53,668 bases of DNA from an uncultured Spirochaetia bacterium (GCA_947040945.1 CAMRCO010000002.1:1-53668); one strand, 5' to 3'; shown: positions 2,448-11,076, counted from the first letter of the stretch. Program-made: numbers and translations. Notes: generated by a model not told the origin, from the letters alone.

Positions 2448-4205
2448 TTAGTTAAACTTCCACCATTTTACTTTATTGCTATTGCTGTCATCAAGAAAGT
2501 CTGCTATATCTTTATGACCAAGGCTCACCGCAAGTAAGTATGGAGTGTATCCCTCTTCATCTTTTATAGTTTTGTCAGCATTGTTATTGGAAAGTAGCTT
2601 AACAATTTCTAAATTATCTATTGCTACAGCATAATGAAGTGGTGTTTGTGATAGTGTATCTTTTGCGCTGCTGTTAATATTAGGATATTCTAGCAGTGTA
2701 GATGTTAGCTCAGTTGACCCTGATATAACTGCATAATGAAGAGCTGTTCTGTTATCACTTGAATATGCATTAAGAACTGAATTATCTTTTTCTATTAACA
2801 TTTCTACTATATTACTATGTCTATAGTATGAAGCGAGATGAATAGGCGTAATACCTGATAGTTCATTTTGATAGTAAATATCAGCATCATTGTCAAGTAG
2901 TAAACTAACAATTTGGTCATTTCCTAAGGCAGTGGCTAGAAATAGTGGAGTAGAGTCTCCGAACTCCCAACTAGAAATTTCAGGTATATTACCCATGATG
3001 TCTATTTCTAAGTCTTCATAAAGTAATAATTCTTCAATAGATTCTATTTTGTTTTCATTAATAGCAATATGAAGTGGTGTATATCCATTTTCAAGTGTGA
3101 AGTTAGGGTTAAGTCCTTCTTTCATTAATTTTTTTATAGTTAGAATATCACCTTTTTTAACTGCTACAATAAACTCAAGATTTTTTACATTAGGATTTTC
3201 TATAGTAGTTTCTACTGTCTTTGGTGCTTTATCAATAGAATTAATATTCGTTTTTTCATTAGTATTGTCTGTTGTGATGTCAGGTTCATCGTCTTTTGTG
3301 TCGGTTTCGTTCATTATTATAGGTTCAAGTGGTTTTACTTTATCGTTATCAGTGGTCTCTACAGGTTTAACTTTAGTTGTAGTAGTCGTAGTAGTCATTT
3401 CTGTTGGTTTAATAGGTTTGACTTTAGTTGTAGTAGTCGTAGTCGTTGTTATAGTTTCTGTTGGTTCAATAGGTTTGACTTTAGTTGTAGTAGTCGTAGT
3501 CGTTGTTATAGTTTCTGATGGACTTGCTGCCCCTGAAAGCATGTCTATAATTTCTTTATTTTTAGATATATTTTTAGCATAATCTATAGCTTTTATTCCA
3601 TTTATATCTTCTATATCAGCATCAGCACCATTTTCGAGGAGAATCTCTACAATCTCAGGATTATTAGACATAGATGCCCAATGAAGAGGACTGCTTCTAT
3701 AATTATCTAAAGCTCGTGAAAGTTTTTTGTCTTTAAGAAGTAGCAACTTAGTTATTTCTGTGTGTCCATTTGCTGCCGCTATGTGTATGGGCATAGTTCC
3801 GTCAACATTATCTCGTGCTTTAGTGTTTGCTTTATATTTAATTAAAGTTTCTACTATATCAGTATACCCTAAATATGAAGCAAGTATTAATGGCGTTACT
3901 CCATACATATACCAATCATTTATAATTGCAGTTTCAGGTAGTCTTGCCTCTTTATCTGTTTTAGCATAAGCGAGTAACTCATTTACTGAATCTAATTGCT
4001 CATAAAAAACTGCTCTATGTAGGGGGGTATATCCTTCGTCATCAACTATGTTAACATTTATTTTTGACATTATCAATGATTTAATAGTGTTAGTGTCTCC
4101 GTTTTGAACAGCGGTGAATAATAGGGTTTCATTATCTGTTAATGCTAGTAGATTAGCCGAAAATAAAATTAAAAAAACAATGGGCAATTTAAATAAGTTT
4201 GTCAT
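2448..4205 (-). CDS. Secreted ankyrin-repeat protein with two ankyrin modules and a Thr-rich repeat linker
   Basis: N-terminal signal peptide (MTNLFKLPIVFLILFSANLLA); many GxTPLHxA...G...IVxxLL ankyrin repeats. Confidence 0.93.
   Translation of the reverse strand: MTNLFKLPIVFLILFSANLLALTDNETLLFTAVQNGDTNTIKSLIMSKINVNIVDDEGYTPLHRAVFYEQLDSVNELLAYAKTDKEARLPETAIINDWYMYGVTPLILASYLGYTDIVETLIKYKANTKARDNVDGTMPIHIAAANGHTEITKLLLLKDKKLSRALDNYRSSPLHWASMSNNPEIVEILLENGADADIEDINGIKAIDYAKNISKNKEIIDMLSGAASPSETITTTTTTTTKVKPIEPTETITTTTTTTTKVKPIKPTEMTTTTTTTKVKPVETTDNDKVKPLEPIIMNETDTKDDEPDITTDNTNEKTNINSIDKAPKTVETTIENPNVKNLEFIVAVKKGDILTIKKLMKEGLNPNFTLENGYTPLHIAINENKIESIEELLLYEDLEIDIMGNIPEISSWEFGDSTPLFLATALGNDQIVSLLLDNDADIYYQNELSGITPIHLASYYRHSNIVEMLIEKDNSVLNAYSSDNRTALHYAVISGSTELTSTLLEYPNINSSAKDTLSQTPLHYAVAIDNLEIVKLLSNNNADKTIKDEEGYTPYLLAVSLGHKDIADFLDDSNSNKVKWWKFN
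3364..3519. repeat. Three-copy 51-57 bp tandem repeat encoding the Thr7-8/KVKPI linker
   Basis: Units begin GGTTTRACTTTAGTTGTAGTAGTCGTAG at 3364, 3415 and 3472; the first is 6 bp shorter. Confidence 0.85.
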
Positions 4206-4463: not shown

Positions 4464-4484
4464 CCCCCCCCCGTGTGTGTGCAC
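4464..4484. repeat. C9 homopolymer followed by (GT)4 and GCAC upstream of the first OMP paralog
   Basis: TTACCCCCCCCCGTGTGTGTGCACG, read directly. Confidence 0.9.
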
Positions 4485-4622
4485 GTTATACTCTAATTTA
4501 ATTCACGTAAAATACTTTCTTAAAGAAAAATATATAAATGTAGTTTCACATTATTTGATATGTATAAGTCCTATAGATTTTATCTGTAGTTTTTATAAAA
4601 AATATTATTTTGGAGTTTATTT

Positions 4623-5366
4623 ATGAAAAAGATGATTTTGGTTTTAAGCATGATGCTTATAGCTTCTAGTGTTTACGCAATTGAGTATTCAGTTGGTTTA
4701 ACAGCGCCGGGTTTTGGTGTAGGAATCCTTCAAGGAGATACAGCTAAACAGTACACAGACATGCTTGAAAGTACTGAGGAGGGTTATGGTGCGAAGAGTG
4801 TTTTTTCTCCTTCATTTGCACCGGCAGTTCAACTTGATTTTATGGTTGAGTTATTACCTTTCCTTGCAATAGAAACTGGTCTTGGTTGGACTTATTCTAG
4901 TGTTATTTATGAATCTGAAGAAATTGAAGGATATATGTATCAGGGTAGTGCAGTAAGAAATGAATTAACAATACCAATTATGATTCGTGGACAGTATGAG
5001 GCTGATAAGTTTGTTGGTTATGCTTCAGTTGGTGTGAAGCTTGGTATCCCTCTATCAAAACATTATATGTATGGTAAAATATTAAAAGATGGTAAAGAAA
5101 TTGATGAGACTAAAAAACCTAGAGAAGATGCTGATCCTACTTATTCTGACATGGCTATGGATATTGCTTTTGCTTTAGGTGGCGAGTATAGAATAACTGG
5201 TGCTCATTATGTTGGTTTAAGACTTGGTTATGACCTAAACGTAATAAGCCCTGTAAATATGAAAGAAATGACTGACGATCAGGCTAAAGATTATGACTTC
5301 TATCAGGACAACTTTAATGTTAGCTTGTCTTATAGATATGCGTTCAACAGCAAGTGGACTAAATAG
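4623..5366 (+). CDS. Outer-membrane beta-barrel-like surface protein, paralog 1
   Basis: Signal peptide; family motifs LTAPGFGVGxLxG, AIETGLGWxxSS, RNELTIPIMIR, LGIPLS, LRLGYDLNVISP, C-terminal YRYAFNSKW. Confidence 0.88.
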   Translation: MKKMILVLSMMLIASSVYAIEYSVGLTAPGFGVGILQGDTAKQYTDMLESTEEGYGAKSVFSPSFAPAVQLDFMVELLPFLAIETGLGWTYSSVIYESEEIEGYMYQGSAVRNELTIPIMIRGQYEADKFVGYASVGVKLGIPLSKHYMYGKILKDGKEIDETKKPREDADPTYSDMAMDIAFALGGEYRITGAHYVGLRLGYDLNVISPVNMKEMTDDQAKDYDFYQDNFNVSLSYRYAFNSKWTK

Positions 5367-5400
5367 TAATATTTAAACATTACTAATTAAATAAATAAAG

Positions 5401-5438
5401 AAAGAGCTAAGTAGATTTATTCTGCTTGGCTTTTTTTT
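5401..5438 (+). terminator. Rho-independent terminator after OMP paralog 1
   Basis: AAAGAGCTAAGTAGA TTTAT TCTGCTTGGCTTTTTTTT. Confidence 0.85.
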
Positions 5439-5452
5439 GTCAAATAATATTA

Positions 5453-5481
5453 TTGACATTCTAATTTCTATGTGGTAAAGT
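5453..5481 (+). promoter_or_regulatory. Putative promoter of OMP paralog 2
   Basis: TTGACA, 17 nt, TAAAGT. Confidence 0.5.
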
Positions 5482-5522
5482 TATCATATTATAGAGGGAA
5501 AATATTATTTTAGGAGATATTC

Positions 5523-6215
5523 ATGAAAAAAATGATTTTGGTTTTAAGCATGATGTTTATAAGTGCAAATGTTTATGGGTTTGGACTTTCTCTTGGGTTA
5601 TCAACACCAGGTTTTGGTTTAGCTTTTTTAAGAGGCGATAATGTAGAAAAATTTGTAGATAATTTAGAAAAAAGTGGTTATGAAAAAAAATCTGCTTTTT
5701 CATTTGCTCCTGCTATTCAGCTTGACATTATGATAGAGCTTCTGCCTTTTGCTGCAATAGAAACTGGTATTGGTTGGAGTACTGCTAGTATTATTTATGA
5801 AATGGAATCAGGTAATGTTAAAAGAGAATTTACTTTTAAAAGAAATGAATTAACAATACCTCTTATGTTGCGTTTACAGAATCAAATTGGTTCATTACTT
5901 GGTTATGCTGCTGTTGGTGTTAAGTTTGGAATACCTCAATCAAGCAGTTATATGTCTGAAAAAGTTTTTGTAAATGATAGACTAAGTGATTCTTTAAATG
6001 AAGATTATTATGATTCTTCTGACATAACACTTGATATTGCTTTTGCAATTGGTGGTGAGCTTAATATATTAGATTCTCATTATGTTGGAATAAGAGGTGG
6101 TTATGACCTAAACGTAATTAGCCCAGTAGATACTGAGAGAGTAACTTCTGATTATGAATGGTATCAGGATAATTTTAATGTTAGTTTAACATACAGATAT
6201 GCTTTTGGTCGCTAA
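5523..6215 (+). CDS. Outer-membrane beta-barrel-like surface protein, paralog 2
   Basis: Same motifs as paralog 1 (LSTPGFGLAFLRG, AIETGIGWS, RNELTIPLMLR, GYDLNVISP, SLTYRYAF). Confidence 0.88.
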   Translation: MKKMILVLSMMFISANVYGFGLSLGLSTPGFGLAFLRGDNVEKFVDNLEKSGYEKKSAFSFAPAIQLDIMIELLPFAAIETGIGWSTASIIYEMESGNVKREFTFKRNELTIPLMLRLQNQIGSLLGYAAVGVKFGIPQSSSYMSEKVFVNDRLSDSLNEDYYDSSDITLDIAFAIGGELNILDSHYVGIRGGYDLNVISPVDTERVTSDYEWYQDNFNVSLTYRYAFGR

Positions 6216-6250
6216 TAAAATTAATCAGACTAAAAAAATATTATAAGCTA

Positions 6251-6288
6251 AAAAGCTTCCTAGATTATTCTGGGGGCTTTTTTTTTTG
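6251..6288 (+). terminator. Rho-independent terminator after OMP paralog 2
   Basis: AAAAGCTTCCTAGA TTAT TCTGGGGGCTTTTTTTTTT. Confidence 0.85.
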
Positions 6289-6411
6289 CAATTTTTTTGA
6301 AAGGAATTAATATAATGTGTTTATTTTATGTTTATGTAATATATTAAAATTTGAATAAAGCTGATATTAATTGATGTGTAAGTTAAAAAAATAATTTTAG
6401 GAGATAGTCTT

Positions 6412-7152
6412 GTGAAAAAAATATTTTTAGTTTTAAGTATGATGTTTATAAGTGTAAATATATATGGAGTCGAAACCTCTATAGGTTTGTCAACACCCGG
6501 GTTTGGATTAGGTTTTTTAAGAGGCAGTGATGCAAAAAGGATTATAGACAATTTAGAAGATTCACCTGTTTCTGGTTATGAAAAAGTATTCGGGCTTTCA
6601 CTTTCACCAGCAGCTCAGTTAAATGTTATGGTTGAGTTTTTACCTTTTATAGCCATAGAAACTGGTGTTGGTTGGAGAACATCTAGCATTATTTATAAAC
6701 ACGAACAAAACTATATTAGAACTGATGTTACTTTTACAAGAAATGAAATAATAGTGCCAATTATGCTACGTTTTCAGCATGAATTTGAAAGATTTGTGAT
6801 TTACGGTTCTGCAGGAGTTTTACTTGGCATTCCTTTATCAAAAACTTATGAGTTTCGTCATGTTTTTTTAAGTGATAATATAAGTGAGGCTTTTAGTAAT
6901 ACTAATGATTATAATAGTTCGCCATTTAATATGGATGTTAGTTTTGCTTTAGGTGGCGAGTTTAGAGTGGCAAGTGCTCATTATATTGGTTTAAGGCTTG
7001 GTTATGACCTAAATGTATTAAGTCCACTCAATGCCAAAGAGATAGCGGCTGAAAAAGGCGAGCCTGAAGAGGACTTTAAGTCTTGGTATCATGATAACTT
7101 TAATCTTAGTTTGTCATATAGATATGCTTTTAATAGTAAGTGGAATAAGTAG
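6412..7152 (+). CDS. Outer-membrane beta-barrel-like surface protein, paralog 3
   Basis: GTG start after GGAG RBS; LSTPGFGLGFLRGSDA, AIETGVGWRTSS, LRLGYDLNVLSP, YRYAFNSKWNK. Confidence 0.88.
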   Translation: MKKIFLVLSMMFISVNIYGVETSIGLSTPGFGLGFLRGSDAKRIIDNLEDSPVSGYEKVFGLSLSPAAQLNVMVEFLPFIAIETGVGWRTSSIIYKHEQNYIRTDVTFTRNEIIVPIMLRFQHEFERFVIYGSAGVLLGIPLSKTYEFRHVFLSDNISEAFSNTNDYNSSPFNMDVSFALGGEFRVASAHYIGLRLGYDLNVLSPLNAKEIAAEKGEPEEDFKSWYHDNFNLSLSYRYAFNSKWNK

Positions 7153-7242
7153 CATCAATAATATAGAAGTATTGTTATATTATGGAAGAAAGTAACTATT
7201 TATAAAAAAATATACTTATAGGGCAATACTTTTAGTTTTTAT

Positions 7243-7308
7243 TTTCATCATGATAGTTTTGGTGCTGCCCTAACATATAAATGTTTCTTCTATTATAATG
7301 ATTTTTAA
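7243..7308 (+). pseudogene. Stranded fragment of an OMP paralog C-terminus
   Basis: Reads FHHDSFGAALTYK..., with 32 nt (7248-7279) identical to 8008-8039 inside paralog 4. Confidence 0.8.
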
Positions 7309-7354
7309 TCTTGTAAAATACGGATTAAATGCTATACTCTTAATATGTTAAGTA

Positions 7355-8083
7355 ATGGGAGTATTTTTTATGAAGAAGGTATTTTTAGCTTTGGCAGTAG
7401 TGTTTACTTTAGTTACGACAAGTGTAAATGCTTATGCGGTTGAAGTTTCTCTTGGGACGTCATTTCAGCCTTTAGGTTTTAATTTTTTAAGAGGCAGTGA
7501 TGCTCGAAGTTTTATAAATGACATGAAATCAGACGGATTAGAAAGTACTTTAGATTTACTTTTTGAAAGTAGAATAGATGTTATGATTGAAATTTTACCT
7601 TATTTAGCCTTAGAAACTGGTATTGGTCAAAGACTATCCATGAATTTTTATGACGGAACTATTCCAATTGTAGAAGGAGTTCTTGAAGCTGGGGCACGAA
7701 CTACTATTCAAAGGTTAGAGTTTACTGTTCCAATTATGATTCGTGGACAATATGAGTTTGAAAGACAACTTCTCTATGCATCTGTGGGTGTTAAACTTGG
7801 AATACCTATGACAAACTCTTATGTAACTACTTCAATGCCATTATTTGATATAGAGGAAGATTTACTAGATTCTAAGTTTTCTATGGATGTTAGTTTTGCT
7901 TTAGGGCTTGAAGGCAGGCTCGGGGATGCTAATTATTTGGGTGTAAGGCTCAGCTATGATTTAAATGTAATAAAGCCTTTTGACAATAAAGAAATTGATG
8001 ATTTTTATCATGATAGTTTTGGTGCTGCCCTAACATATAGATATGCTTTTAACAGCAAATGGAAGAAGAAGAATGCGAGTTAA
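7355..8083 (+). CDS. Outer-membrane beta-barrel-like surface protein, paralog 4
   Basis: Same family motifs; C-terminus FYHDSFGAALTYRYAFNSKWKK. Start may be the internal ATG at 7370. Confidence 0.85.
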   Translation: MGVFFMKKVFLALAVVFTLVTTSVNAYAVEVSLGTSFQPLGFNFLRGSDARSFINDMKSDGLESTLDLLFESRIDVMIEILPYLALETGIGQRLSMNFYDGTIPIVEGVLEAGARTTIQRLEFTVPIMIRGQYEFERQLLYASVGVKLGIPMTNSYVTTSMPLFDIEEDLLDSKFSMDVSFALGLEGRLGDANYLGVRLSYDLNVIKPFDNKEIDDFYHDSFGAALTYRYAFNSKWKKKNAS

Positions 8084-8161
8084 TTTAAAAGTGAATATAT
8101 ATTAAACTTGAAAATGTGTTTGTAATAAAAACTATTTTAATATAGTATTTGTTAGTATAAT

Positions 8162-8914
8162 ATGATTAATGGGGGAGGTCTTATGAAGAAAGCATTTTTA
8201 GTTTTAACAATGATGTTTTTAAGTGTAAGTCTTTATGCTATTGAAGTTTCTTTTGGGGCTTCGCTAAGGTATTTAGGCATGGGAATTATAAGAGGAGATG
8301 ATGCGAATCTACTAGGTGACACATTGGTAGATTTCGGTTTAGATGAAATAGATCCTGTTTCATTTTTTCATGGTGGGCAACTAGACATGATGGTAGAGTT
8401 AGCTCCTTACTTTGCTTTTGAAACTGGAATTGGATATTCAGTATCTACTTTTGCATTTGAAGGAAGAACAATAGGCGGTGTTAAGGCAGAGGTTATATTT
8501 AAAAGAGAAGAGGTTACTATACCTTTTTTACTTCGTTTGCAAGTTGAAACTAGAAATCAGGTTTATTATGCTGCTGCTGGGGTTAGACTTGGAATACCTG
8601 TAACAGAAAACTATGCTGAAGTTAATGCATCTCTATTTGGGAAAAGTCAAAGTATAGATGTTTTAGATTCTGAGTTTGCTTTGGACGTTTCTTTTGCTTT
8701 GGGTGTAGAGAATAGACTTATAGGCTCTCATTATTTAGGTGCAAGAATGGGCTATGATATGAATGTAATATCCCCTTTTGATAATAAAGAAATGGATGAT
8801 TTTTATCATGATGACTTTTATGGCAGTCTAACATATAGATATGCCTTTAACAGCAAATGGAATGAACCTAAGCCTAAAAGTACAACTAAAAAATTAGATA
8901 CCAACATTATATAG
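8162..8914 (+). CDS. Outer-membrane beta-barrel-like surface protein, paralog 5
   Basis: Same family motifs; extended C-terminal tail KPKSTTKKLDTNII. Start may be MKKAFLVLTMMF at 8183. Confidence 0.85.
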   Translation: MINGGGLMKKAFLVLTMMFLSVSLYAIEVSFGASLRYLGMGIIRGDDANLLGDTLVDFGLDEIDPVSFFHGGQLDMMVELAPYFAFETGIGYSVSTFAFEGRTIGGVKAEVIFKREEVTIPFLLRLQVETRNQVYYAAAGVRLGIPVTENYAEVNASLFGKSQSIDVLDSEFALDVSFALGVENRLIGSHYLGARMGYDMNVISPFDNKEMDDFYHDDFYGSLTYRYAFNSKWNEPKPKSTTKKLDTNII

Positions 8915-8937
8915 ATTTTAATTTAATAAATAAAATA

Positions 8938-8976
8938 AAAAGCTACTTAAAGATTATTTTTATAGTGGCTTTTTTT
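8938..8976 (+). terminator. Putative terminator after OMP paralog 5
   Basis: AAAGCTACT ... AGTGGCTTTTTTT. Confidence 0.6.
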
Positions 8977-9042
8977 ATATGGACAAAATACTTGAAAAGG
9001 AATACACTTTGCTATAGTGTTTTTATTATAAAGGTTATAATT

Positions 9043-9783
9043 ATGAAAAATATATTTTTGTTTTTAATGTTTTTAGTTATTATTACAAACACAAATGTTT
9101 ATGGATTTTTTGGTCTTAAGAGTGGCAAACCATTTCAATTTACTGATAATGAAGAAGAAATATGGCTTTCTATGGGGCTAACAACACCCGGTATTGGAGT
9201 GGGTTTTTTAAGAGGAGTTAAGATAAACAAGGGTTCGAGAGATACTGGTTCTGTTTCATTCAGTCCTGCAGTTCAAATAGATGTACTAATAGAGTATAAT
9301 TATTTAACTTTAGAAACTGGTATTGGATACACTAAGTCTAGTCTCACATATTCTAAAGTTCATTTTTTAAGAGAAGAAATAACTATACCTCTGATAGCTC
9401 GTATATTTTTCGATTATGGCAAGTTTATTACATACACCAGTATGGGTTTAAAATTTGGTATCCCTTTAAGAGATAGTTATGCTAGACAGTTTTTAGATGG
9501 TGAAGAAATCAGTTTAGGTGAAAATGCTAATAATGGGTCTAATTTTGCTATGGATATTGCATTTGCTATGGGTTTTGAAGTCTTAATTGCTGATGAACTT
9601 TGGGATGGTAAGCATTATTTAGGATTAAGAGTAGGATATGACCTCAATGTAGTGAACCCTACTAATCCTCAGAAAATGGCTAATATATTCGGTGGTAACA
9701 CTAGAGATTATGAAGGTACTGATTTTGCTCATGACAGTTTAAATTTTAGCTTGACATATAGATGGAAGTTTTATGAAATATAA
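9043..9783 (+). CDS. Outer-membrane beta-barrel-like surface protein, paralog 6 (more divergent)
   Basis: LTTPGIGVGFLRG, LETGIGYTKSS, REEITIPLIAR, LGLRVGYDLNVVNP. ATG at 9043 with an AAGG RBS starts a signal peptide; the ORF extension to 8965 overlaps the preceding terminator. Confidence 0.85.
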   Translation: MKNIFLFLMFLVIITNTNVYGFFGLKSGKPFQFTDNEEEIWLSMGLTTPGIGVGFLRGVKINKGSRDTGSVSFSPAVQIDVLIEYNYLTLETGIGYTKSSLTYSKVHFLREEITIPLIARIFFDYGKFITYTSMGLKFGIPLRDSYARQFLDGEEISLGENANNGSNFAMDIAFAMGFEVLIADELWDGKHYLGLRVGYDLNVVNPTNPQKMANIFGGNTRDYEGTDFAHDSLNFSLTYRWKFYEI

Positions 9784-9903
9784 AAAATTAGACACAAGTG
9801 TTATATAGATTTTAATTTAATAGACAAACTGTTTGATTTTTTTTATATTTATTATAACATGTTAATTATGTTTCTCAGTGTAAAAAAATAAAAGGAAGTA
9901 TTA

Positions 9904-11076
9904 ATGATTATAGAACCTAAAGTATTAAATAATGTATGTATAACTTCACACCCTGAAGGATGTGCTAAAGAAGTTTTGAAACAAATAGAGTATATAAAAA
10001 AACAAAAGAAAGTACCTACTGTAAAAAATGCTTTAATTATAGGCTCATCAGGTGGATATGGACTTGCTACAAGAATAGCATTAGCTTATGGAGCAGGAAC
10101 TTCTACTATGGGAGTCTCACTCGAGAAAGAAGCTACAGAAAAAAGAACAGCAACACCTGGATTTTATAATAATAAGGCTTTTAGTGCATCTTGTCTAAAA
10201 GATGGTATTAAAGAAAAAAGCTTGATTCTTGACGCTTTCCTAAACGCTTCAAAAGAAACTGTTGTGAAAGAGGCTAAAGAGTTTTTTGATGGTAAAATTG
10301 ATATTGTAATATATAGCCTTGCAAGTCCTGTGAGAATGGATGAGACAACTGATACACTTTATCGTTCAGTGCTTAAACCACTTGATAAACCATATATTGG
10401 AATGGGTGTTGACTTTATGACAGAAACTTTAAGCGAGGTTAAAGTCGAGCCTGCTAATGAGGATGAACTTAAAGCTACAGTTAAGGTTATGGGTGGAGAG
10501 GACTGGGGGCTTTGGACAAAAGCATTACTTGATGCTGACTTACTTTCTGATAATGCTATAAATATTGCGTATTCATATATAGGCCCTGAAATGACAAAAG
10601 GCGTATACAGAGACGGCACTATTGGACGTGCTAAGGATCATCTTGAAAAAACAGCACATGAACTTGATGCAATTATGAATAGTAAAGTTAAAGGGCATGC
10701 TTATGTTTCTGTAAATAAAGCAGTTGTTACAAGAGCATCAGCGGTAATACCTACAATACCTTTGTATATTGGTATACTTTTTAAGGTTATGACAGCGGCA
10801 GGCTCGCATGAAGGATGTATTGAGCAATCGTATAGACTTCTACAAGAAAAACTATATTCGGGTGGCGACATACCACTTGATGACAATAATAGAATAAGGC
10901 TTGACGACTGGGAGATGAGTGACGATGTTCAAAACGAAGTTAAAAGGTTATGGGATACTGTAACCCCTGATAATCTTAAAAGTATAGCTGATTTAAGTTT
11001 GTTTAGAAAAGACTATATGAATCTACATGGATTTGAAGTGAGTGGCATTGATTATTCTAAAGACGTAGCCCTATAA
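9904..11076 (+). CDS. fabV: Trans-2-enoyl-CoA/ACP reductase (FabV/Ter family)
   Basis: N-terminal IIEPKVLNNVCITSHPEGC and NALIIGSSGGYGLATRIALAYGAGTSTMGVS; whole-length FabV-like. Confidence 0.95.
   Translation: MIIEPKVLNNVCITSHPEGCAKEVLKQIEYIKKQKKVPTVKNALIIGSSGGYGLATRIALAYGAGTSTMGVSLEKEATEKRTATPGFYNNKAFSASCLKDGIKEKSLILDAFLNASKETVVKEAKEFFDGKIDIVIYSLASPVRMDETTDTLYRSVLKPLDKPYIGMGVDFMTETLSEVKVEPANEDELKATVKVMGGEDWGLWTKALLDADLLSDNAINIAYSYIGPEMTKGVYRDGTIGRAKDHLEKTAHELDAIMNSKVKGHAYVSVNKAVVTRASAVIPTIPLYIGILFKVMTAAGSHEGCIEQSYRLLQEKLYSGGDIPLDDNNRIRLDDWEMSDDVQNEVKRLWDTVTPDNLKSIADLSLFRKDYMNLHGFEVSGIDYSKDVAL

Follow-up and report, generated by a model that had tools for sequence, protein, structure and literature searches.

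A tandem array of six genes in an uncultured Spirochaetia bacterium probably represents a lineage-restricted family of surface barrels that owes its diversity to gene duplication, divergence of the loops, loss, recombination and exchange. The array is made up of six consecutive plus-strand ORFs, each of 230–250 aa, which occupy positions 4623–9783 of the window (the whole 53,668 nt stretch of DNA that was analysed).

The array and the predicted fold of its products

The genes of the array are as follows.

4623–5366, plus strand: omp1, 247 aa, eight-stranded outer-membrane barrel (ORF; AlphaFold; PF13505 just above the cut-off)
5523–6215, plus strand: omp2, 230 aa, barrel paralogue (ORF, alignment)
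6412–7152, plus strand: omp3, 246 aa, GTG start, eight-stranded barrel (AlphaFold)
7370–8083, plus strand: omp4, barrel paralogue, mechanical start at 7355 (ORF, alignment)
8183–8914, plus strand: omp5, barrel paralogue with a tail beyond the last strand, mechanical start at 8162 (ORF, alignment)
About 9043–9783, plus strand: omp6, the most divergent paralogue, with an extra N-terminal segment, mechanical start at 8965 (ORF, alignment)

The array is flanked by a divergently transcribed ankyrin-repeat gene (2448–4205, minus strand) and by fabV (9904–11076, plus strand), and its G+C content is equal to that of the whole window. The ankyrin-repeat gene encodes an exported protein with two repeat blocks, joined by a threonine-rich linker of repeated TTTTTTTTKVKP units whose length could vary. 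Ankyrin-repeat genes also follow the tandem pair of family members found on another contig of the host (L063, G000 C127, 190–4414).

The preliminary description of the locus as a six-gene tandem array of paralogues was borne out by the position of the ORFs, by end-to-end alignment (pairwise identities of 36–54 % among omp1–omp6 over their whole length, with 44 invariant columns) and by profile searches. A profile built from the six sequences recovered all 13 copies present in the host genome at E values of 2e–52 or better, so that the array family stands far beyond chance. The sequence motifs said to be shared by all six proteins are better regarded as a consensus. ETG is indeed found in all six, and in 24 of 24 relatives, but others fall short of this: STPGFG is exact in omp2 and omp3 only, LGIP and NSKW each occur in four of the six and YRYAF occurs in five, the equivalent in omp6 being YRWKF.

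AlphaFold models of omp1 (pLDDT 74, pTM 0.67) and of omp3 (from a 13-row alignment; pLDDT 84, pTM 0.76) are eight-stranded barrels whose strands are connected by three short turns and four long loops. The solved structures that matched in Foldseek were OmpA, Ail, OprG, OmpW, NspA and OmpX, at TM-scores (0.35–0.48 by query length) that are modest because the loops are long; no solved relative was found by sequence at E≤1. The models support the earlier proposal that the proteins are outer-membrane β-barrel-like, and the best of the solved matches are OmpA, Ail, OprG and OmpW. PF13505 (OMP_b-brl) matched omp1 at 29.0 bits, against a cut-off of 28.7, while omp4 and omp5 scored below it; matches at E≤0.01 were obtained for 13 of 24 family members. 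The array proteins share the eight-stranded barrel with the OmpA transmembrane domain, OmpX/Ail and OmpW/OprG, but are only about 9–14 % identical to them, have longer loops and form a lineage-specific expansion. They also lack the C-terminal peptidoglycan-binding domain of OmpA, each being a single barrel of 230–250 aa with no second domain.

With the omp3 model as a map, mean pairwise identity within the array was 0.49 in strands and turns versus 0.18 in loops (p≤1e–4), and over 23 members the corresponding values were 0.45 and 0.12 (p≤1e–4). Loop lengths range widely; the fourth loop, for example, spans 13–26 residues in the array and 8–32 across all members. The strongly differing segments, which had been taken for surface loops, thus coincide with the loops of the model. 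Among omp1–omp3, dN/dS was 0.3–0.4 in strands and about 1.0 in loops, values which indicate that the frame is held and that the loops are little constrained.

According to the mechanism proposed here, the six products would be single-domain, eight-stranded outer-membrane β-barrels, each with a signal peptide, that rely on Sec for export and on the BAM machinery for folding into the outer membrane. In the predicted architecture, the four long loops would lie outside, whereas both termini and the three short turns would be on the periplasmic side. The copies would then most likely present host or mucus ligands with differing surfaces for contact. It is possible, though doubtful, that they are instead narrow small-solute channels of the OmpW/OprG type, with copies that differ in substrate and loops that gate different solutes. 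OprG and OmpW rank high among the solved structures that matched, and eight-stranded barrels of Treponema pallidum that were modelled on OmpW and OprG have been proposed to carry small molecules (PMC8407342). However, the strand residues, which would line such a channel, are conserved between copies and it is the loops that differ most; moreover, the array has no adjoining transport genes of its own. Adhesion is slightly, and weakly, favoured over small-molecule uptake, on the grounds that variation is limited to the loops and that barrels of the Ail type use their loops to act (PMC8407342).

Distribution and relation to known families

The host had been taken for a Brachyspira, but both its placement in a genome panel and its aspS identities assign it to another genus of the Brachyspira family. 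In that panel the host genus (g1) comprises the host and one other species, referred to here as the sister species, and the family also holds genera g2 and g3; the latter, with 22 species rich in Vsp genes, would correspond to Brachyspira. The aspS of the host is 82 % identical to that of the sister species, 76 % to that of g3 and 72 % to that of g2.

The host genome (2.17 Mb, 130 contigs) contains 13 copies of the barrel family, i.e. the six of the array and seven elsewhere: single genes on contigs C23, C35, C46 (cut by the contig end), C63 and C93, and the tandem pair on C127. Copy counts for the host rest on genome-wide searches, and every genome in which the family was found is a draft assembly. 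The six-row profile gave 17 matches in g2, several of them with in-frame stops. At least five g2 copies (L042, L043, L044, L045 and L046) carry in-frame stops or frame breaks, which points to frequent decay of members. The sister species has one divergent family gene, and no member was detected with this profile at E≤1e–3 in the 22 g3 genomes; in the 23 genomes of the Brachyspira group as a whole, none was convincing. Extension to a 24-row profile and 247 genomes of the phylum added only marginal matches, in three g3 genomes (profile positions 3–56 only) and in two distant genomes. Variation of the family between species is strong and, as judged from these searches, its members occur in only a few genera of the Brachyspira family, Brachyspira itself being excluded. 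One further close member (L031, 5966–6724), 72 % identical to the C63 copy, was observed in a contig binned as Deferribacteraceae. The aspS of that bin is only 49 % identical, and the contig is probably a mis-binned spirochaete contig, or else reflects a transfer.

The preliminary description had raised the tandem variable surface protein (Vsp) loci of Brachyspira as a possible identity for the array. The Vsp (Bhmp39) proteins are likewise located in the outer membrane, and their genes can be arranged in tandem (PMC5415613, PMC4955376); the two families are alike in being multi-copy, partly tandem and found in the same bacterial family. They are, however, unrelated by profile, as none of the six array proteins matches PF05540 at E≤1. 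The array proteins are of about 240 aa, as opposed to a PF05540 profile of 403 positions and Vsp proteins of about 400 aa, and PF05540 members are found throughout g3, where the array family is absent, as well as elsewhere in the host genome, separate from the array family. An assignment of the array to the Vsp family is thus exceedingly improbable.

Comparable by description are TP0126, TP0733, TP0479 and TP0698 of T. pallidum (PMC8407342), which are likewise single-domain, eight-stranded spirochaete barrels with long variable extracellular loops, and which form a small paralogous set. The array family differs from that set in its 13 clearly homologous copies, six of them in tandem, and in its signs of recent duplication and exchange. 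Some members also show weak whole-length similarity to the TDE1717 family (NF049866), the best E value being 7e–9 for the C93 copy, but no match comes near the curated cut-off of 135 bits (best member, 35.8 bits). Weak, sub-cut-off matches to the TDE1717 profile occur across the Brachyspira family, so that distant barrel cousins do exist there.

Duplication, relics and transcription of the array

At the corresponding locus of the sister species, manC, serS, fabV and the divergent ankyrin gene are kept, and no omp sequence was found in the stretch of approximately 270 bp that separates fabV from the ankyrin match. The empty site could reflect loss. Silent differences among omp1, omp2 and omp3 amount to 0.44–0.51, and are thus below the values of 0.62–0.74 obtained between the host and the sister species for five housekeeping genes (fabV, serS, manC, aspS and lepA). 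For this reason the three copies are probably younger than the species split, although gene conversion could make them look young. The silent sites of omp4–omp6 are too near saturation for dating. Gene conversion was sought as clustered silent identity and rejected as a general feature, since 16 of 253 pairs gave p<0.05, which is about chance; the values within the array (0.006 for omp1–omp2, 0.027 for omp4–omp5 and 0.037 for omp1–omp3) are suggestive only. In the family tree the array was not resolved as one clade, and the array label needs two changes. Two relics of gene ends were identified.

7241–7279, plus strand: relic between omp3 and omp4, a copy of the last strand of omp4 (8001–8039); identity at 38 of 39 nt, E value 1e–15
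9781–9828, plus strand: relic repeating the 3′ end of omp5 (8887–8934), after omp6; 85 % identity over 48 nt, with a core of 22/22 nt

Three genes of the array are followed by intrinsic terminators, each consisting of a hairpin and a U-run and each better than all 200 shuffles.

5398–5437, plus strand: intrinsic terminator after omp1 (–20.5 kcal/mol, z –6.4, 0/200 shuffles as good)
6244–6287, plus strand: intrinsic terminator after omp2 (–15.5 kcal/mol, z –3.8; also found by a pattern scan)
8937–8974, plus strand: intrinsic terminator after omp5 (–12.7 kcal/mol, z –4.0)

No such terminator was found 3′ of omp3, omp4 or omp6. Because of where the terminators lie, omp1, omp2, omp3–omp5 and omp6 are probably separate units. 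Of the earlier claim that at least three members possess terminators or promoter-like sites of their own, the part concerning terminators stands, whereas promoter-like matches in the region (37, versus 31.7±5.2 expected from shuffles) show no excess over chance. The independent expression that had been suggested is plausible, on the basis of the terminators, for omp1, omp2 and omp6.

A candidate phase-variable element, which should be regarded as a lead only, was observed before omp1.

4464–4481, plus strand: C9(GT)4G tract, about 150 bp upstream of omp1

The C9 tract is one of five C/G tracts of at least nine in the host genome, and a TATACT box (4487–4492) lies downstream of it. The tract, known from one sequence, recalls the poly-G phase switch in the promoter of TP0126 of T. 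pallidum (PMC7864442). Other host tracts of eight or nine are coding, or are G runs that resemble ribosome sites. Two G9 tracts (L104, 1501–1509, and L108, 1501–1509) lie in that position, a few bases 5′ of start codons, one preceding a gene for an HtrA-like protease and the other a gene for a peptidase-like protein, and are possible translational switches. Poly-C phase variation as a common feature was considered and rejected, as the g2 tracts of 24 and 16 C residues lie within GC-rich junk at contig ends and are likely sequencing artefacts. Such poly-C/G runs, of 16–24, were seen at the contig ends of L141 (7604–7627), L142 (5414–5443) and L032 (9–32), all of g2, which is a public MAG. A C9 tract near a broken omp gene of g2 was likewise discarded as a switch, being coding sequence of a mannose-6-phosphate isomerase-like gene.

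Probable exchange between genera and its implications

Two members outside the array are unusually close to g2 genes. The C63 copy and its g2 counterpart on C96 are 80 % identical, with a silent difference of 0.39 (0.31–0.48), and C127a, a member of the tandem pair on C127, and its g2 counterpart (C121a) are 65 % identical, with a silent difference of 0.42 (0.35–0.50). For comparison, the silent difference between host and g2 is 0.69–0.74 in housekeeping genes, and the median over all pairs of the barrel family is 0.60. The similarity of the C63 pair extends from 27 bp 5′ of the start codon to the stop codon; that of C127a and C121a is likewise one gene long. The neighbouring genes differ. Since the silent differences are low and the similarity ends at the gene ends, single-gene transfer between genera is the better reading of both pairs.

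An account without transfer, in which the pairs are ancestral orthologues that the sister species and Brachyspira have lost and in which codon bias has held back change at silent sites, is unlikely. Gene order was not kept between the host and g2 at any tested locus, aspS included, so that differing neighbours alone are no proof of transfer, and purifying selection on the strands of the C63 pair is strong (dN/dS 0.09). However, old pairs of the same family reach the median of 0.60, and codon bias does not, therefore, hold the silent difference at 0.39. In addition, lepA on contig C63 is of normal divergence (83 % identical to the sister species and 77 % to g2, silent difference 0.71), which places that contig in the host lineage and not as a stray.

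Single-gene transfer thus remains the favoured reading, and recombination within genes is also indicated. The leaders of C127a and C46, which are unlinked, agree at 95 % of 75 nt while their bodies are only 50 % alike; this apparent leader swap points directly to recombination at the 5′ end. Carriage on phages or plasmids was considered and rejected, as no relative was found in viral contigs or, with omp3 as the query, in plasmids. Brachyspira is known to possess gene transfer agents (PMC4955376).

Taken together, these observations point to a surface repertoire in which copies would arise by tandem duplication, with loops diverging under little constraint on strands that are held. Copies would decay, leaders and gene ends would recombine, and single genes would sometimes be received from related genera. 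A further-reaching scheme appears quite unlikely: gene-sized barrel cassettes would circulate among the genera of the Brachyspira family, be exchanged as single ORFs and recombine at their conserved leader and last-strand ends, the array would be a site of acquisition and expansion, and omp1 would be switched by the C9(GT) tract. If that were true, the surface repertoire of these spirochaetes would be both shared and switchable.

Spirochaetes are well known to carry outer-membrane families that are expanded and variable in their loops. Less expected are the absence of this family from Brachyspira while its relatives expand it, and the signs of single genes crossing between genera. Within the Brachyspira family, at least two genera have expanded a group of surface proteins distinct from the Vsp proteins studied in Brachyspira. 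Its members share one frame but differ in their loops, and as naturally occurring sets of barrels they would be useful for testing the role of the loops. Should the single-gene transfers be confirmed, surface proteins would be common property across genera, which would bear on host adaptation in these organisms.
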